55,225 nt of DNA. Source: a virus. The translations under genes were made by a program, and so were the position numbers. The notes under the pieces were generated by a model that was not told the DNA's origin, ran no database searches, and worked only from the letters and a program-made list of their open reading frames with translations. Shown here in pieces: positions 46,408 to 54,092 of the stretch. How positions within the stretch are numbered: position 1 is the stretch's first letter; the number at the start of each line of letters is the position of its first letter. The stretch covers positions 1 through 55,225 of IMG/VR virus record IMGVR_UViG_3300028553_000034. One strand, given 5' to 3'.

Positions 46408-47787
46408 ATGATCCTAGAAGTTGAAAACAACGAAAATCAAGTAATCATTTCTTATTTCGATAAGGAAGGAAGAATAAAAATTAAAGATTATCGATTAGAT
46501 AATTGTCCAAATTGGAAAGTTTGCTCAGATTCAGATCCTCGTAGAGATCCAGAATTCAAAAATTGGAATGGTAGATCTGTAAAGAAACAAAATTCTCCAC
46601 GATTCAATAAATTCTCTATATATGAATTTATCGATACTCTCCCAGAAGATGAAAAGGCAGAAATAACAGCTCTTAACTTTCCCAAAATTCAATCAATAGA
46701 TATTGAAACTGAAGTCATTGATTCATTCCCTGTTCCTGAAATTGCTCGGGAAAGAATCACAACTATTGCTATTGCAACTGAAGCTAATGCAACTATTGTT
46801 TTAGGATGGAAACCTATTTCTAAAGAACAAGAAAAGATGATCTTCGACAAACATCGAGAATATCTAAAAGAATATGGCGAATGGAATTTCAAATATATTT
46901 GTTTCGAAGACGAATATAACATGATGTATACTTTCATAAATAAATTCATACCAAATTTCAGTTTAATGATAGGTTGGAACTTTATTGGATTCGATTGGAA
47001 ATACATATATAATAGATGCAAGAAAATAGGTATCGACGTTTCTAGATGTTCGCCATCTAAGAAAATCTATGGCAAAGATAATATCCCAACTCACGTAGGA
47101 ATTATCGATTATTTAGATGTTTATCGTCGATGGGACCGAACAGTTGCAATCAAAGAAAATAACACTTTAGATTTCGTAGGAAATGCTGTTCTTGGAGTAA
47201 CTAAATTAAAATATGAAGGAACTCTGCAAGAACTATACGAAAATGATTATGACAAATATGTACTTTACAATGCTATTGATGCTGCGATAGTTTGTTTAAT
47301 ACATAAAAAACTTAAAACAATTAATGCGATTCTTACAATGTCTTGTCTTTGTAATTTGTCCATATATCGAGCATCTTCAGCTGTTAATCTTACTGAAGCT
47401 CTTCTTTGGAAAGGATATTATGATAGAAAATTGGTTATAGCAGACGAAAGAGGAGATTCAGTTAGAGGAGTTTATGAAGGTGCTTACGTAAAAGAACCAG
47501 AGGTAGGGATATTCAGAGCTGCAACATGTTATGATTATGCTTCTCTATATCCATCTGTAATGAGACAATATAACGTATCACCTGAATCATTCATAACGAA
47601 AACTCAAGATCCTGCAACATTAGAAAAATATAGAAACGACGAAAATTATATCGTTTCTGTAACAGGTGCTATTTATGATAACAAAGATACTTCCGTATTA
47701 AAAGAAATTCTTACGGATCTATATACAAAACGTAAAAAGTTCAAGAATCGTCATTTAGATATCGAACGATTATTAGTAAAAAAATAA
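46408..47787 (+). CDS. 43A: DNA polymerase gp43, N-terminal part (exonuclease, palm start, fingers half)
   Basis: A 459-aa protein. It has family-B exonuclease motifs ExoI (SIDIETE, Asp98/Glu100), ExoII (GWNFIGFDWKY, Asn191/Asp196) and ExoIII (YNAIDAAIV, Tyr287/Asp291), then polymerase motif A YDYASLYPSVMR (Asp376). It stops inside the first fingers helix (LYTKRKKFKNRHLDIERLL) before motif B. The missing motifs B and C are in the gene at 51664. The two parts total 854 aa, close to T4 gp43 (898). It probably associates with the C-terminal part to form one enzyme. An A7 run spans the last Lys codons. Confidence 0.92.
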   Translation: MILEVENNENQVIISYFDKEGRIKIKDYRLDNCPNWKVCSDSDPRRDPEFKNWNGRSVKKQNSPRFNKFSIYEFIDTLPEDEKAEITALNFPKIQSIDIETEVIDSFPVPEIARERITTIAIATEANATIVLGWKPISKEQEKMIFDKHREYLKEYGEWNFKYICFEDEYNMMYTFINKFIPNFSLMIGWNFIGFDWKYIYNRCKKIGIDVSRCSPSKKIYGKDNIPTHVGIIDYLDVYRRWDRTVAIKENNTLDFVGNAVLGVTKLKYEGTLQELYENDYDKYVLYNAIDAAIVCLIHKKLKTINAILTMSCLCNLSIYRASSAVNLTEALLWKGYYDRKLVIADERGDSVRGVYEGAYVKEPEVGIFRAATCYDYASLYPSVMRQYNVSPESFITKTQDPATLEKYRNDENYIVSVTGAIYDNKDTSVLKEILTDLYTKRKKFKNRHLDIERLLVKK

Positions 47788-47795
47788 AAAAATAC

Positions 47796-48794
47796 ATGGG
47801 ACTTTTTGATGAAAGAATAGAATATAAACCTTTTGAATATCCAGAATACTACACAGAAGGATGGTTAAAACAAGCGCAAGCTTTTTGGTTACATACAGAA
47901 ATATCCATGCAAGGTGATGTAAAAGATTGGAAAGAAAATTTATCAGCATCTGAGAAAAATCTAGTAGGAAACATCTTACTTGGATTTGCACAAACAGAAT
48001 GTGCTGTTTCTGATTATTGGACAGGGATGGTAACTAAATGGTTTCCAAAACATGAGATTAAGCAAATGGCTATGTTATTTGGATCTCAAGAAACTATACA
48101 TGCAACTGCATATTCATACCTAAATGAAACTCTAGGTCTAGAAGATTTCAAAGGATTTATGCATGAACCTACGATCGCAAACAAATTTGAATTTCTACTT
48201 TCAACTGAAGCAGATTGGACCCCTGAAGATTTAAGAACCTCCTTAAAAGCAAGAAGAGATGTTGCAAAATCTTTAGCTATCTTTTCTGCTTTTGCTGAAG
48301 GAGTTTCCCTTTATTCTTCTTTTGCTGTTTTATATAGCTTTCAAATGAGAAATCTACTTAAAGGAATCGGTCAACAAATGAAATGGTCAGTAAGAGACGA
48401 ATCTCTACATTCACGTATGGGATGTCAACTATTCAATCATGTATGTGAAGAATATCCAGAATTAAGAGAAAGTGTTCAGAAAGAAGTAATTTATGCTTCT
48501 AAATTAATGGTTGAAATGGAACATCGTTTCATCGATAAAATTTTCGAAGATGGTGATTTAGAAAATCTAAAATCCGAAGATGTTAAAAACTTCATCAGTA
48601 GAAGAGCAAATGAAAAACTTGCGGAATTAGAATATTCGCCTATTTTCGAATATGATATCGAATCCGCTAATCAACTTGAATGGTTCTATCATCTAACAGG
48701 AGGAGTAACACATACTGACTTCTTTGCAATCAGACCTACAGATTATGCCAAAGCAGGTGAAGATGAAAATTGGTCAGACGAAGAATTATGGTAA
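47796..48794 (+). CDS. nrdB: Ribonucleotide reductase small subunit (class I)
   Basis: A 332-aa protein. Metal and radical residues fit class I: SQETIHATAY gives Glu99, His102 and Tyr106 (equivalents of E. coli E115, H118, Y122); FAEGVSLYSS (Glu168); SVRDESLHSRMG (Glu202, His205). The C-terminus (GEDENWSDEELW) is the acidic tail that docks to NrdA. It generates the tyrosyl radical for dNTP synthesis. It is placed between the two polymerase parts, directly before nrdA. Confidence 0.93.
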   Translation: MGLFDERIEYKPFEYPEYYTEGWLKQAQAFWLHTEISMQGDVKDWKENLSASEKNLVGNILLGFAQTECAVSDYWTGMVTKWFPKHEIKQMAMLFGSQETIHATAYSYLNETLGLEDFKGFMHEPTIANKFEFLLSTEADWTPEDLRTSLKARRDVAKSLAIFSAFAEGVSLYSSFAVLYSFQMRNLLKGIGQQMKWSVRDESLHSRMGCQLFNHVCEEYPELRESVQKEVIYASKLMVEMEHRFIDKIFEDGDLENLKSEDVKNFISRRANEKLAELEYSPIFEYDIESANQLEWFYHLTGGVTHTDFFAIRPTDYAKAGEDENWSDEELW

Positions 48795-48815
48795 ATTAAT
48801 AAAAAAATAAAAAAT

Positions 48816-50615
48816 ATGATAGGTAACGCAGATTCAATAGCTGAATCATTAGGTTGGGAAGTTGGAGTAGATTATCCAATTTGGGGCCACACAGAAACTT
48901 ACTTAAAAACTATAAGCAAAGGCTATTTATTAGCAGGTGAAAAACCAAAAGATGCTTATTGGCGAGTTTGTACAACAGTAGCTAAAAGACTAGGAAAACC
49001 AGAAATGGCTTCTAAGTTTTTTGATTATGTTTTTAAAGGATGGTTAAATCTTGCCACTCCTGTTTTATCAAACACAGGAACCGAAAGAGGATTACCTATT
49101 TCGTGTTTTGGTATCGATGTTGCAGATTCTATTTTCGATATAGGAACAAAGAATTTAGAACTTATGTTACTAGCTAAACATGGAGGTGGTGTAGGAATTG
49201 GAATTAATCAAATAAGACCTGCAGGAACAGTTATAAAAAACAATGGAACTTCAGATGGTGTTGTTCCTTTTTGTAAGATATATGATTCAACTATATTAGC
49301 AACAAGTCAAGGTTCAGTTAGAAGAGGTGCTGCTTCAGTAAATATGGATATTGAACATAATGATTTTTGGGAATGGTTAGAAATTAGAGAACCTAAAGGT
49401 GATGTTAATCGTCAATCTCTTAATCTTCATCAATGTGTTGTGATATCGGATTCTTTTATGCAAAAGGTAGAATTAGGCGATAAAGAATCTAGATCTAAAT
49501 GGTCAGCAGTTCTTCGTAAACGTAGATCTACAGGAGAACCTTATATTATGTACAAAGGAAATGTTAATCGATCAAATCCCGAAGCATATTCAAAAAATGG
49601 ATTAAAAGTCTATATGACTAATATATGTTCGGAAATTACTCTACATACGGACGAATCTCATTCTTTTGTTTGTTGTTTAAGTTCTATTAATCTTGCAAAA
49701 TATAGCGAATGGAAAGATACAGATCTAATTTATACTTCTACGTGGTTTTTAGATGGTGTCCTTGAAGAATTTATTCAGAAAGCAAAATATATGTCAGGGT
49801 TTTCTAATTCAGTTCGTTCTGCAGAAAAAGGTCGAGCTTTAGGTCTTGGAGTTCTTGGTTGGCATACATATCTTCAAGAGAAAGGACTTCCATTTGAAGG
49901 TCTTCTTGCTCAATACGAAACAAGAAAAATCTTCTCACAACTTAAACTTGAATCTGAACGAGCAAGTAGAGATATGGCAAGAGAATATGGAGAACCACTT
50001 TGGTGTATCGGAACAGGAATGAGAAATTCACATTTAAGAGCTATTGCTCCAACAGTTTCTAATTCCAAACTAAGTGGAAATGTTTCTCCTGGAATCGAAC
50101 CATGGGCAGCTAATGTATTCACTGAACAAACTGCAAAAGGAACTTTCATTCGTAAAAATCCTACATTAGAAAGAGCCCTTAAGAAAATAAAGAAAAACAA
50201 CAAAGAAATTTGGGATCAAATACTTTCAGATGGAGGGTCTGTTCAAGGTCTAGATTTTCTTGACGGATGGTTCTTTAATGATAGCAATTTAGTTAACTCA
50301 GAAAAAATTATTGATATGACAGATTCTGAAAGGGCTGATCTAATTCCATTCAAAGACGTATTCAAAACTTTCAAAGAAATTAATCAATTAGAACTAGTTA
50401 AACAAGCAGGTTTGAGACAACAATATATAGATCAATCTGTTTCTTTGAATCTTGCTTTCCCAACTGAAGCTACACCTAAATTCATTAATCAAGTTCATAT
50501 GGAAGCTTATAAACAAGGAATAAAAACTCTTTACTATATGCGAACTGAATCAGTTCTTCGAGGAGATATAGCTATTAAAGCTCTTGATGAAAGCTGTTTA
50601 TCGTGTGATGGATAA
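48816..50615 (+). CDS. nrdA: Ribonucleotide reductase large subunit (class I), no ATP cone
   Basis: A 599-aa protein, shorter than E. coli NrdA (761), because the N-terminal ATP-cone is absent. Active-site elements: SNTGTERGLPISCFGID (Cys97), MTNICSEITL (Asn269, Cys271, Glu273), SFVCCLSSINL (Cys286/287) and LYYMRTES (radical Tyr pair). The C-terminus ESCLSCDG carries the CxxC shuttle. Without the cone, overall dATP inhibition is not expected. It makes dNDPs for phage DNA. Confidence 0.93.
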   Translation: MIGNADSIAESLGWEVGVDYPIWGHTETYLKTISKGYLLAGEKPKDAYWRVCTTVAKRLGKPEMASKFFDYVFKGWLNLATPVLSNTGTERGLPISCFGIDVADSIFDIGTKNLELMLLAKHGGGVGIGINQIRPAGTVIKNNGTSDGVVPFCKIYDSTILATSQGSVRRGAASVNMDIEHNDFWEWLEIREPKGDVNRQSLNLHQCVVISDSFMQKVELGDKESRSKWSAVLRKRRSTGEPYIMYKGNVNRSNPEAYSKNGLKVYMTNICSEITLHTDESHSFVCCLSSINLAKYSEWKDTDLIYTSTWFLDGVLEEFIQKAKYMSGFSNSVRSAEKGRALGLGVLGWHTYLQEKGLPFEGLLAQYETRKIFSQLKLESERASRDMAREYGEPLWCIGTGMRNSHLRAIAPTVSNSKLSGNVSPGIEPWAANVFTEQTAKGTFIRKNPTLERALKKIKKNNKEIWDQILSDGGSVQGLDFLDGWFFNDSNLVNSEKIIDMTDSERADLIPFKDVFKTFKEINQLELVKQAGLRQQYIDQSVSLNLAFPTEATPKFINQVHMEAYKQGIKTLYYMRTESVLRGDIAIKALDESCLSCDG

Positions 50616-50633
50616 AAAACTAATTAACAAATG

Positions 50634-50664
50634 AAGGGAGATGCAAATCTCCCTTTTGTTTTTT
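50634..50664 (+). terminator. Rho-independent terminator after nrdA
   Basis: AAGGGAGAT (50634-50642) and ATCTCCCTT (50647-50655) form a perfect 9-bp stem with a GCAA loop, followed by TTGTTTTTT. It lies 19 bases after the nrdA stop and separates nrdBA from the clamp and polymerase C-terminal genes. Confidence 0.88.
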
Positions 50665-50677
50665 ACATAAAATAAAT

Positions 50678-50896
50678 ATGGAAAATCCTGTATACGTATT
50701 AACTAAACCAAAAGCTAGACAAACAATAGAAGTCTTCGTAGATAAATCTATGGATGCCGATGGATGGTTTTTTGAAATCCGATACATCGAAAAGAAAACA
50801 AACAAAACAGCCCATTCACATTGTGTAATAAAAAAAGACCTAGAATCTTGGTTAAGATCACTTCAAAGTGAAGGATGGATTATGGAAACAAAATAA
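50678..50896 (+). CDS. Small hypothetical protein between nrdA and clamp
   Basis: A 72-aa protein. It has a beta-rich core (VEIRYIEKK region: DGWFFEIRYIEKKTNKTAH) and a C-terminal helix (KKDLESWLRSLQSEGWIMET). It starts just after the terminator in an AAATAAATATG context. No family is recognised. By position it may be part of the replication set. Confidence 0.5.
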   Translation: MENPVYVLTKPKARQTIEVFVDKSMDADGWFFEIRYIEKKTNKTAHSHCVIKKDLESWLRSLQSEGWIMETK

Positions 50897-50912
50897 ACAT
50901 ATAAAAATAAAA

Positions 50913-51662
50913 ATGAAAGTAAAAGTAACAAAAGTATCAGTTGCCCATCTTAATGGACTGATTCGAAAAATGTTGTTAATGGATACGTCGTTATACATTA
51001 ATATCAACAAAGATCAAGTATGGTCATCTGTCTATACACCAACTAAAGATGTTGTTAAATCGTTTTCTATGCCGACTTCAGATGTTTTTACATTTGAAAG
51101 CCCAATAGAAGAAACAATTAAGCTATCATTCTTTTCAGGATCTAGATTAGCAAATTGTATAGGACACTTCGATCCACATCATTTACAAATGGAAATATCA
51201 ATCTTCAAAGACGAAGACGAAGGGGTTTTCTATGCTGATAAAATGATTCTTCGTGATCAAAAACTAAAGATTGAAATTCATTGTCAAGATATTTCATTAG
51301 GTTTCACTTCAATGACAGAAGATCAAGTTACTCGAGCATTCGATAAATCTTCAGAGCTATTTCAATTCCAGTATTCAAAAGAAGACTTTACAAAAGTATC
51401 ATCTCTAATTTCTTTAGATAAATCAGAACTTCTAAAAATTACAGGTGAATCCGATGGAATTCATATTAAAACAGATGCATTCGATATCATTATAGATGAT
51501 AATCAAAAAATCAGCGATGGAATTCAAAAATCAACTTTCAAATCATTCTTTGAACGAGTAGATAAAGAAACATATCACGTTTCTGTTTGTGAAAACAAGC
51601 TAATTTTAACTTCTCAAGAAACAAATACTACAATCGCATTAAATCTTGCAATAACGGAATAA
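50913..51662 (+). CDS. 45: Sliding clamp gp45-like
   Basis: A 249-aa protein from the ATG at 50913 (an earlier frame start overlaps the preceding gene). T4 gp45 is 228 aa. It is entirely alternating strand/helix: FTFESPIEETIKLSFFSGSR, KEDFTKVSSLISLDKSELLK, GESDGIHIKTDAFDIIIDD and VSVCENKLILTSQETNTTIA, the last being like the final clamp strands. The place directly before the polymerase C-terminal gene (stop and start one base apart) supports it. Similarity is weak by eye. Confidence 0.65.
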   Translation: MKVKVTKVSVAHLNGLIRKMLLMDTSLYININKDQVWSSVYTPTKDVVKSFSMPTSDVFTFESPIEETIKLSFFSGSRLANCIGHFDPHHLQMEISIFKDEDEGVFYADKMILRDQKLKIEIHCQDISLGFTSMTEDQVTRAFDKSSELFQFQYSKEDFTKVSSLISLDKSELLKITGESDGIHIKTDAFDIIIDDNQKISDGIQKSTFKSFFERVDKETYHVSVCENKLILTSQETNTTIALNLAITE

Positions 51663-51663
51663 T

Positions 51664-52851
51664 ATGAATATAGAAAACTTAACGGATGAAGATATTCGAG
51701 GTTTAATCAAAGCAGATCTATCAGAAGAAGATATAGAACTTCTAAAAAAAGAATCCCTTAATTGTTATTCATTCGAACAAAGTATCAAACTTGCGATTAA
51801 CAGTATCTATGGTGCCTTTGCTAATGAATACTTTCATTTTTATAACATAGCAATCGCAGAAACAGTTACTCTTCAAGGTCAAGATGCAATCAAATACACT
51901 GAAAGATTAATTGAAAAATACTTCTCAGAATTTTTTCATCGAGATAAACCTTTACTAGCAGCTCTAGGTGTTAAAGAAGATCAAGTGGTTCCTCCTATTA
52001 AAGGAAAGGTATGGAAATATACAGATACCGATTCAGGTTACTTAATTTTCGAAGAATGTATCGAAGCTGTTAATTGGCAAGGGTCTGTAAAAGATTTTGT
52101 TTTAACACTTAACAATTTCCGATTAGCTGCTTATGTTAAGAAAGTTCTTGATGATTACGCAAAAGTAAATAACACAGAAAACTACTTAGATTTCGAATTA
52201 GAAACTATTGCAGAAAATGCTATATGGGTAGCAAAGAAAAAATACGTTCAAAATATCATTTGGAAAGATGGTAAGGAATATGAACCTTTAAGTTATATCA
52301 AAACTACAGGATTAGAAATTATTCAATCGAGTACACCTCCTTTCTGTCGAGAAAAACTTATTGAAATTGTAAAATTCATCTTCTCGAAGAAAAAATTAAC
52401 AGTAAAAGATAACGCTGAACTCGTAGGTCTAATCAAAGAAATAAAGAAAGAATTCAAGCTTTCTAATATCGAAAAGATTTCCATGTCTCGTGGAATATCC
52501 GATTATCGTAAATTTATTCTAAATGATACCGATACATTCGAAATGAATTCTGGATGTCCTATTCATATTCGAGCAGGTGGTTATCATAATTACCTACTAC
52601 ATCAAAGTGGAATGAAAGGTAAATATGAACTTATTGGTGCCGGTGGTAAAGTAAAATGGTATCATGCAGCCGATGATTTTTGTAATGTTTTCGCTTACAA
52701 ACCAGGTCAATTCCCTATGGAATTCGCTCCTAAAATGGATATAGAAGGACAATTTAGATCGACCATTATTGATCCTCTAAATCGAATTATCGTTCCAGCA
52801 GGATTACCTCCACTCAATCCTTCATTAGCTTATACGGTAAGTTTATTCTAA
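51664..52851 (+). CDS. 43B: DNA polymerase gp43, C-terminal part (fingers half, palm, thumb)
   Basis: A 395-aa protein. It begins with ~30 acidic residues (IENLTDEDIRGLIKADLSEE), then motif B SIKLAINSIYGAFANEYF (Lys42, Asn46, Tyr49), motif C WKYTDTDSGYLIF (Asp121/Asp123) and the KKxY-type WVAKKKYVQNI. The thumb follows. The C-terminus LAYTVSLF resembles the clamp-binding end of T4-type polymerases (SLFDMFDF) but is shorter. It lacks exonuclease and motif A, so it is inactive alone and must join the 46408 product. Confidence 0.92.
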   Translation: MNIENLTDEDIRGLIKADLSEEDIELLKKESLNCYSFEQSIKLAINSIYGAFANEYFHFYNIAIAETVTLQGQDAIKYTERLIEKYFSEFFHRDKPLLAALGVKEDQVVPPIKGKVWKYTDTDSGYLIFEECIEAVNWQGSVKDFVLTLNNFRLAAYVKKVLDDYAKVNNTENYLDFELETIAENAIWVAKKKYVQNIIWKDGKEYEPLSYIKTTGLEIIQSSTPPFCREKLIEIVKFIFSKKKLTVKDNAELVGLIKEIKKEFKLSNIEKISMSRGISDYRKFILNDTDTFEMNSGCPIHIRAGGYHNYLLHQSGMKGKYELIGAGGKVKWYHAADDFCNVFAYKPGQFPMEFAPKMDIEGQFRSTIIDPLNRIIVPAGLPPLNPSLAYTVSLF

Positions 52852-52907: not shown

Positions 52908-54092
52908 ATGGCAAAAGAATTTTCAATTGGTGAGCTTCAAAAGGAGCTACGAAAAATAAATCCATTTGGGGACGTTATCAGTAAGTCTGATTTCTCTAAA
53001 ATTACTGAATGGATTCCGTCAGGTAATTATCACTTAAATGCAGTCTTCAGTGGAGATTTATTTGGTGGTATTCCAAACAATAGAACAATCTGTTTAGCGG
53101 GTGATTCAGGAACAGGAAAAACATTCCTTCTTCTTAACATGGTTGCACAGGCTCAGAAAATGGGTTATTATGTAATTTATTACGATACTGAAGGTGCTGT
53201 AGATGTTGATAACATTCAAGCATTCGGTGTGGATCCTGAAAGATTCGATCATCAACCAGTTTCTGATTTAGCAAAATTCAGAACCTCAATTACTACATTG
53301 ACTAAAAAGTTAATGGAAGCTAAAGAGAAAGGATTTACGACTCCTAAGATCTTTATTGCACTTGATTCTTTAGGAATGCTTGCAACTACAAAAGAAATAG
53401 ATGATGCAATCAGCGGTAATACAGCAGCCGATATGACTCGTGCAAAATCCATTAGATCTTTATTCCGTATCATTACTTCAGATTTAACAGGATTACAAAT
53501 TCCTTTTGTCTTTACTAATCACACATATGCTTCAACAGGTATGTTCCCTACAATTAACCTTTCAGGTGGTGGAGGATTAGTTTATTCGGCTTCGGTTATT
53601 CTTGCTCTTTCGAAAGCACAAATTAAAGATGGTGCTATACAAACAGGAATTATCGTTTCTGTTAAGACTTTAAAGAATCGTTTTGGTAAACCAATTCCTA
53701 TTAAATTCCATATTCGTTGGGATCGAGGAATGAATCCTTATATTGGAATGGAAGAATATATGTCATGGGATAATTGCGGTATTCAAAAAGGAAACATCCA
53801 TCCACAAAAAGATTATGATAAATGGACTGAGGCTGAAAAGGAAAAATCAAGACCATTTCAAATCGACGGAGATACAGTTTACTTTATGCCAAGAGATACT
53901 GCAAGAAATTATATCGTTAAACACTTAGGAAGAGGAGTTTCTGCACAAGAGCTATTTACCGATATGGTTTGGACTCAAGAAGTACTCGAATTAATCAATG
54001 AAAAATGCATCAAAGCTAAATTCTCTTATGGAATCGATTCTGATGAAACCCCTGAAATCGAAAATTTCCTTTCTGATTTAGACGAAGATTAA
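52908..54092 (+). CDS. uvsX: UvsX recombinase (RecA-like)
   Basis: A 394-aa protein, T4 UvsX is 391. Walker A AGDSGTGKTFLLLN (Lys71), YYDTEGAVDVDNIQAFGVDP, Walker B KIFIALDSLGMLAT, the L1/L2 region (TNHTYASTGMFP, LSGGGGLVYSASVILAL) and an acidic tail (ENFLSDLDED) are visible. It catalyses strand exchange in recombination-dependent replication with gp32 and UvsY. It starts 57 bases after the polymerase C-terminal gene. Confidence 0.93.
   Translation: MAKEFSIGELQKELRKINPFGDVISKSDFSKITEWIPSGNYHLNAVFSGDLFGGIPNNRTICLAGDSGTGKTFLLLNMVAQAQKMGYYVIYYDTEGAVDVDNIQAFGVDPERFDHQPVSDLAKFRTSITTLTKKLMEAKEKGFTTPKIFIALDSLGMLATTKEIDDAISGNTAADMTRAKSIRSLFRIITSDLTGLQIPFVFTNHTYASTGMFPTINLSGGGGLVYSASVILALSKAQIKDGAIQTGIIVSVKTLKNRFGKPIPIKFHIRWDRGMNPYIGMEEYMSWDNCGIQKGNIHPQKDYDKWTEAEKEKSRPFQIDGDTVYFMPRDTARNYIVKHLGRGVSAQELFTDMVWTQEVLELINEKCIKAKFSYGIDSDETPEIENFLSDLDED

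Follow-up and report, generated by a model that had tools for sequence, protein, structure and literature searches.

A family-B DNA polymerase encoded as two separated halves in a phage and its jumbo-phage relatives, probably a two-chain replicase

Introduction

Must a replicative DNA polymerase be a single chain, or can a phage lineage inherit it in two? This question is raised by the IMG/VR virus record IMGVR_UViG_3300028553_000034, whose entire 55,225 bp form the window analyzed here. Exactly two open reading frames (ORFs) in this window match family-B DNA polymerases, one at 46408–47787 (polN) and one at 51664–52851 (polC), both on the plus strand. An earlier note, made from the sequence alone, had described them as the separated halves of one polymerase, and our analysis confirms this observation. 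We consider it highly probable that they encode the two chains of one T4 gp43-type family-B replicative polymerase, which is divided at the fingers tip and whose parts associate non-covalently. Beyond the claims of the note, we find that the arrangement is ancient and clade-wide, and not peculiar to one phage.

Family-B polymerases encoded by two genes occur in cellular archaea, namely PolB1/PolB2 of Methanothermobacter and the PolB of Nanoarchaeum, the latter joined by a split intein. Among the phage enzymes, the roles of the active-site residues are established for gp43 of RB69: R482 and K486 as well as K560, N564 and Y567 are ligands of the incoming deoxynucleoside triphosphate (dNTP), while D411, D621 and D623 are catalytic.

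Among T4-like phages, a split gene 43 is indeed known, as the note had stated, from the Aeromonas phages 44RR and 25 (PMC2988022). Their gp43A and gp43B (Straboviridae, Biquartavirus; ~498 and ~391 aa) are likewise divided at the fingers tip, in 44RR without an intein. The 44RR halves, however, are adjacent, with 49 nt between them, whereas here they lie 3.9 kb apart, with clamp and ribonucleotide reductase (RNR) genes in between. A further split PolB, that of the Pseudomonas jumbo phage MIJ3, is interrupted by an intein that carries a homing endonuclease (PMC6892783), while the break described here carries no intein.

Results

Two complementary halves of one polymerase

The two products divide the domains of a family-B polymerase between them. 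PolN (459 aa) runs from the N-terminal domain through the 3'-5' exonuclease and the motif A-containing start of the palm to the first fingers helix, and matches the Pfam exonuclease family PF03104 (E = 9e-13) and positions 16–137 of the polymerase family PF00136 (E = 1e-15). PolC (395 aa) continues with the second fingers helix, which bears motif B, then the motif C-containing palm and the thumb, and matches positions 134–356 of PF00136 (E = 1e-13), so that the two cover this profile in a complementary manner with almost no overlap. Each is also nearly complete as a half: polN aligns to positions 4–489 of the 502 in phrog_2062 (E = 5e-86) and polC to positions 12–363 of the 382 in phrog_1918 (E = 5e-63). 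Since PHROGs holds these as separate families, the halves have evidently been clustered before as ‘DNA polymerase’ families. For both, a PDB search returned gp43 of RB69/T4 as the nearest solved structure (E = 6e-33 for polN and 1e-12 for polC), which shares their order of domains and every exonuclease and polymerase motif, but is a single chain of 898–903 aa. It is not plausible that such a two-half pattern arose by chance.

The residues that matter for catalysis are distributed accordingly. In polN, the exonuclease residues D98/E100, D196 and Y287/D291 of Exo I–III are invariant even among divergent relatives. Motif A (DYASLY, 47533–47550) contains D376, the counterpart of RB69 D411; D376 and L380–P382 are invariant in 33 relatives, as are R442 and K446 in the fingers helix (47731–47745), which align to the dNTP-phosphate ligands R482 and K486. 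In polC, motif B (K42xxxN46S-Y49-G50, 51787–51813) supplies the equivalents of K560, N564 and Y567 and is invariant in 26 relatives, and motif C (YTDTDS, 52018–52035) supplies those of D621 and D623, with Y119 and D121–S124 invariant; the KKxY motif (K191/K192/Y194) is likewise invariant across divergent relatives. The motif assignments of the earlier note, with Exo I–III and motif A in the N-terminal gene and motifs B and C in the C-terminal one, thus hold for both products.

Structure prediction agrees with this division. The AlphaFold2 model of polN, computed with IMG/VR and genome-contig loci (predicted local distance difference test, pLDDT, 88), is matched by Foldseek to RB69 gp43 (E = 2e-25, TMq 0.74), which suggests an RB69-like fold; for polC, the sequence match given above points to the same fold. 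The last helix of the polN model (residues 430–458) ends almost at the C-terminus, and these 29 residues are predicted to be the first fingers helix. The sole stretch with pLDDT below 50, residues 350–361, lies ahead of motif A, which would normally be packed on palm strands that, as we interpret it, here reside in polC.

As the ligands of one active site sit on both chains, assembly in trans into a non-covalent heterodimer is strongly implied, and it is the only economical explanation, because neither chain could polymerize alone on this reading. PolN would provide everything up to the first fingers helix, including the proofreading exonuclease and motif A, and polC everything from the second fingers helix to the thumb, including motifs B and C. 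The two fingers helices would then pair in antiparallel orientation and the palm strands would close the active site, creating a composite site for dNTP and metal. A precedent is provided by Aeromonas phage 25, whose 43A and 43B co-purify and have polymerase activity (PMC2988022).

The break lies at the fingers tip

We read the position of the break by alignment to RB69 for 44RR and for the 26 clade members in our phylogenetic tree. In all 26, it falls at approximately residues 501–532 of RB69, and in 44RR at about residue 513, always within the loop at the fingers tip where the note had placed it; a comparison of break points and gene order with other split gp43, which the note had proposed, thus yields the same tip as in 44RR with a different gene spacing. 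Among the relatives compared, polN extends 13–30 residues past K446, and polC starts 25–54 residues ahead of motif B. The lengths of these two tails do not covary (r = 0.04) and give no signal of length compensation. The break is most likely an ancient one, passed on by descent, that interrupts the hairpin loop joining the two fingers helices; it is probably tolerated because the tip is solvent-exposed and variable in length.

Distribution among Bacteroidota phages

Two scans for relatives, one with polC and one with an alignment of the N-terminal half, returned at least about 100 loci. The order polN – RNR – (72-aa ORF) – clamp – polC – uvsX – DnaB-like helicase recurs among the matches listed, and the same order is found in dozens of other contigs at 37–100% identity. 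Named members of the clade are jumbo phages of Bacteroidota: PAU (gp105/gp110), Chryseobacterium phage MA9V-1 (ORF135/138), Tenacibaculum phage PTm1 (ORF236 and 239/241) and the Prevotella Lak phages. They are more divergent from the window phage (~25–38% identity), but PAU, MA9V-1 and PTm1, all cultured, share its break and its arrangement, polN – ... – clamp – ... – polC. The assigned hosts of MA9V-1, PTm1 and Lak (Chryseobacterium, Tenacibaculum and Prevotella) are all Bacteroidota; that of PAU has been reassigned to Sphingobacterium (reference in PMC10537231).

In PAU, MA9V-1, PTm1 and LR756500, the gap between the halves contains a clamp homolog, as it does in every lineage checked in which the halves are within ~15 kb of each other; in one locus (L145), the clamp is the sole large gene between them. 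Lak-A2 and four huge-phage records have the halves on opposite strands and at least 100 kb from each other (100–280 kb in Lak and some huge phages). In one contig (L026), the place ahead of nrdB where polN would be expected is taken by a gene for a 452-aa DnaB-like helicase (408–1766); either polN has been relocated, or a rearrangement has affected the contig.

Annotations usually treat the two genes as distinct polymerases or as unknown. The MA9V-1 paper, for instance, gives the halves as two separate polymerases with no mention of a split (PMC10537231), and the database label of PTm1 ORF-239 reads ‘intein-containing split DNA polymerase precursor’. While a split gp43 was known already, and the halves stand in databases under separate names, the clade-wide split at the fingers tip appears to be new, as we found no paper describing it in the open-access literature.

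The probable replicase of the clade

As a 55-kb record alone cannot speak for the remainder of its genome, while its relatives can exclude another polymerase, we scanned 20 related records of up to 735 kb, including the isolates PAU, MA9V-1 and PTm1 and the circular Lak-A2. None of the 20 has a match to PolIII-alpha or PolA, and all PF00136 matches above the Pfam cut-off in the records checked are the halves or their fragments. All further matches are pieces that fall below the threshold; one, in LR756502 (523510–523623), lies in a 49-aa frame distant from both halves. A split enzyme of another kind, a minimal form of PolIII alpha, is reported for jumbo group 2.2 (PMC7824862); PF07733 gave no match to such a protein here, although a divergent minimal form could escape this profile. 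The two halves evolve under strong purifying selection, with median ratios of non-synonymous to synonymous substitution rates (dN/dS) of 0.060 and 0.071. On these sequence grounds, we infer that polN and polC together synthesize DNA and constitute the replicase of the phage.

Alternative explanations

Could trans-splicing at the fingers junction, by a split intein or a split group I/II intron, instead join the two halves into one protein? An intein is known from the split PolB of MIJ3, and inteins also invade the present polymerase: split inteins are present at the DTDS motif of the C-terminal half in PTm1, LR756500 and Lak-A2 (L061 12522–15328, L062 29721–33121 and L070 4872–7023), where polN and the two pieces of polC amount to a three-gene polymerase. 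A contiguous intein occupies the same motif in another contig (L022 9821–11677). All of these sit at motif C, however, and none is seen at the fingers break, where polN ends and polC begins so close to K446 and motif B that there is no room for intein halves; the tail lengths also vary freely, unlike at a splice junction. Within the window, there is neither a Pfam match to an intein nor an Rfam match to an intron at gathering thresholds. The note's statement that the junction lacks an intein is borne out, and we regard joining by splicing as very improbable. Separately, one contig (L025 7307–11074) encodes an intact 1255-aa polymerase with an intein and an apparent homing domain at motif B (SLYG). 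We give as little credence to separate roles for the two products, e.g. polN as a stand-alone exonuclease and polC as a remnant, with a host polymerase copying the phage DNA: the exonuclease domain of polN is complete, but motif A and the R482/K486 equivalents in polN, as well as motifs B, C and KKxY in polC, are invariant though useless alone, and both halves remain under strong selection.

Least credible of all is an assembly or binning artefact, or a pair of pseudogenes beside an intact polymerase in a part of the genome outside the window, which covers only 55 kb of it. The note had named a second intact polymerase and an assembly error joining two loci as the outcomes that would speak against a split. 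The 20 related records contain neither PolA nor PolIII, those of the split type that we checked have no intact PolB, and dozens of independent contigs, as well as sequenced isolates, share the arrangement. Purifying selection on both halves and their invariant catalytic residues also speak against decay. A better, yet still unlikely explanation is that an nrdB–nrdA (or nrd–clamp) block or a homing endonuclease inserted into a continuous gene 43 and split it in place. In most relatives, nrdBA do lie between the halves, LR756500 has a restriction endonuclease (REase)-like ORF after polN, and homing endonucleases have split genes in other phages (PMC2988022). Against this, the slot holds different RNRs or none, RNR distances are uncorrelated with those of the polymerase, and the gene common to the inter-half region across lineages is the clamp, not RNR. 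Moreover, no homing-endonuclease Pfam family is common among the inserts, the one match of this kind being restriction-endonuclease-like.

Several observations weigh against the two-chain polymerase itself, or against its single origin. The complex of polN and polC is a prediction from sequence and from the polN model. A terminator-like hairpin at 50633–50656 stands between the halves and puts their shared transcription in doubt. The pairwise distances of polN and polC correlate strongly (0.98), but clamp and uvsX correlate about equally with both, so that this mostly reflects shared vertical inheritance. Lastly, the tree node that separates the split polymerases from an intact relative, that of Flavobacterium phage MaF61, has weak support (43/84), which leaves repeated splitting, or re-fusion in MaF61, as alternatives to a single split.

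Evolutionary origin of the split

In an IQ-TREE phylogeny of 36 polymerases, the 26 split members of the clade group together, and the MaF61 polymerase, which sits on a long branch, comes closest to them among the intact ones. Our scan found no close relatives of the MaF61 enzyme, and the root of the split clade is therefore weakly supported. The 44RR polymerase, by contrast, groups with those of T4 and RB69, and a single clade of all split polymerases is rejected (approximately unbiased test, p = 6e-72). The split of 44RR and 25, known from a narrow group of Aeromonas phages nested among intact T4/RB69 enzymes, is thus an independent event, and the fingers tip has been broken at least twice. 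As part of the two-chain explanation, the split of the present clade, independent of that in 44RR, probably arose once or very early.

In T4, the clamp gene 45 is upstream of gene 43. In a speculative route, a tandem duplication of a clamp–polymerase block (45-43-45-43) followed by reciprocal loss could have yielded 43N-45-43C; this would explain the clamp between the halves wherever they are within ~15 kb. One might go further and suppose that a single ancient event, possibly this duplication, made the replicase of the whole class of Bacteroidota jumbo and huge phages obligately two-chain (in three coding pieces where a split intein interrupts motif C), and that this state is used rather than merely tolerated, e.g. 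for gating replisome assembly via separately expressed chains. We offer this extended version only as a tentative idea with a rather small chance of being correct.

If the two-chain polymerase is real, a replicative polymerase can stay in two chains over deep phage divergence, by way of a break in its fingers, a mobile part that closes upon each dNTP. The two independent breaks in one place identify the fingers tip as permissive, which is relevant to the design of split polymerases as well as to annotation. The clade also offers a direct test for the assembly of a composite active site and for the origin of split genes, the latter since its members and relatives include intact, two-chain and intein-interrupted forms side by side.

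Genes between and beside the halves

The interval between polN and polC holds the five features listed in the earlier note, all on the plus strand: nrdB, nrdA, the terminator-like hairpin, a 72-aa ORF and the clamp gene. Only the start of the clamp gene needs correction, as ATG 50913 is most likely, judging from homologs, and not GTG 50868. The resulting product (50913–51662, 249 aa) has no usable Pfam match, and the comparison with T4 gp45 is not significant (hhalign gave a probability of 1.8%, the gp45 profile being shallow). A fold search settles its predicted identity as a PCNA-type clamp: the AlphaFold2 model (pLDDT 90.3) matches PCNA-type structures in Foldseek (E = 7.5e-10, probability 1.0). 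Its top structural matches are archaeal and eukaryotic PCNA. The 72-aa ORF (50678–50896) yielded no Pfam or PHROG match and is kept upstream of the clamp in close relatives; the gene in this position is conserved at 72–89 aa without a family match. The hairpin, 17 nt past the nrdA stop codon, has the form of an intrinsic terminator, with a 10-bp stem and a T tract (GAAGGGAGATGCAAATCTCCCTTT, then TGTTTTTT); about three such matches are expected by chance in the region. Downstream of polC, a uvsX/RecA-like recombinase gene (52908–54092, plus strand; phrog_97, E = 8e-63) is a conserved neighbor.

The RNR genes encode the small and large subunits of a class I enzyme (nrdB, 47796–48794, PF00268, E = 1e-58; nrdA, 48816–50615, PF02867, E = 8e-90). 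Despite their location between the halves, their pairwise distances show a correlation of about zero with those of the polymerase, and the content of the slot varies, from class I RNRs of two types to class II (L018, L019 and L137) or none (L145, PAU and PTm1). On account of these differing types and uncorrelated distances, we conclude that the RNR genes form an exchangeable cassette, which did not bring about the split. The slot (47796–50615 in the window; also in L018, L019, L137, L007 and L024) is a hot spot of exchange, occupied by either of two unrelated class I nrdBA types or by a class II (B12) enzyme. In LR756500 (L062 19416–27144), the ORF directly after polN is DUF7487/REase-like, and nrdA is in two pieces around another ORF, which suggests a further fractured gene.

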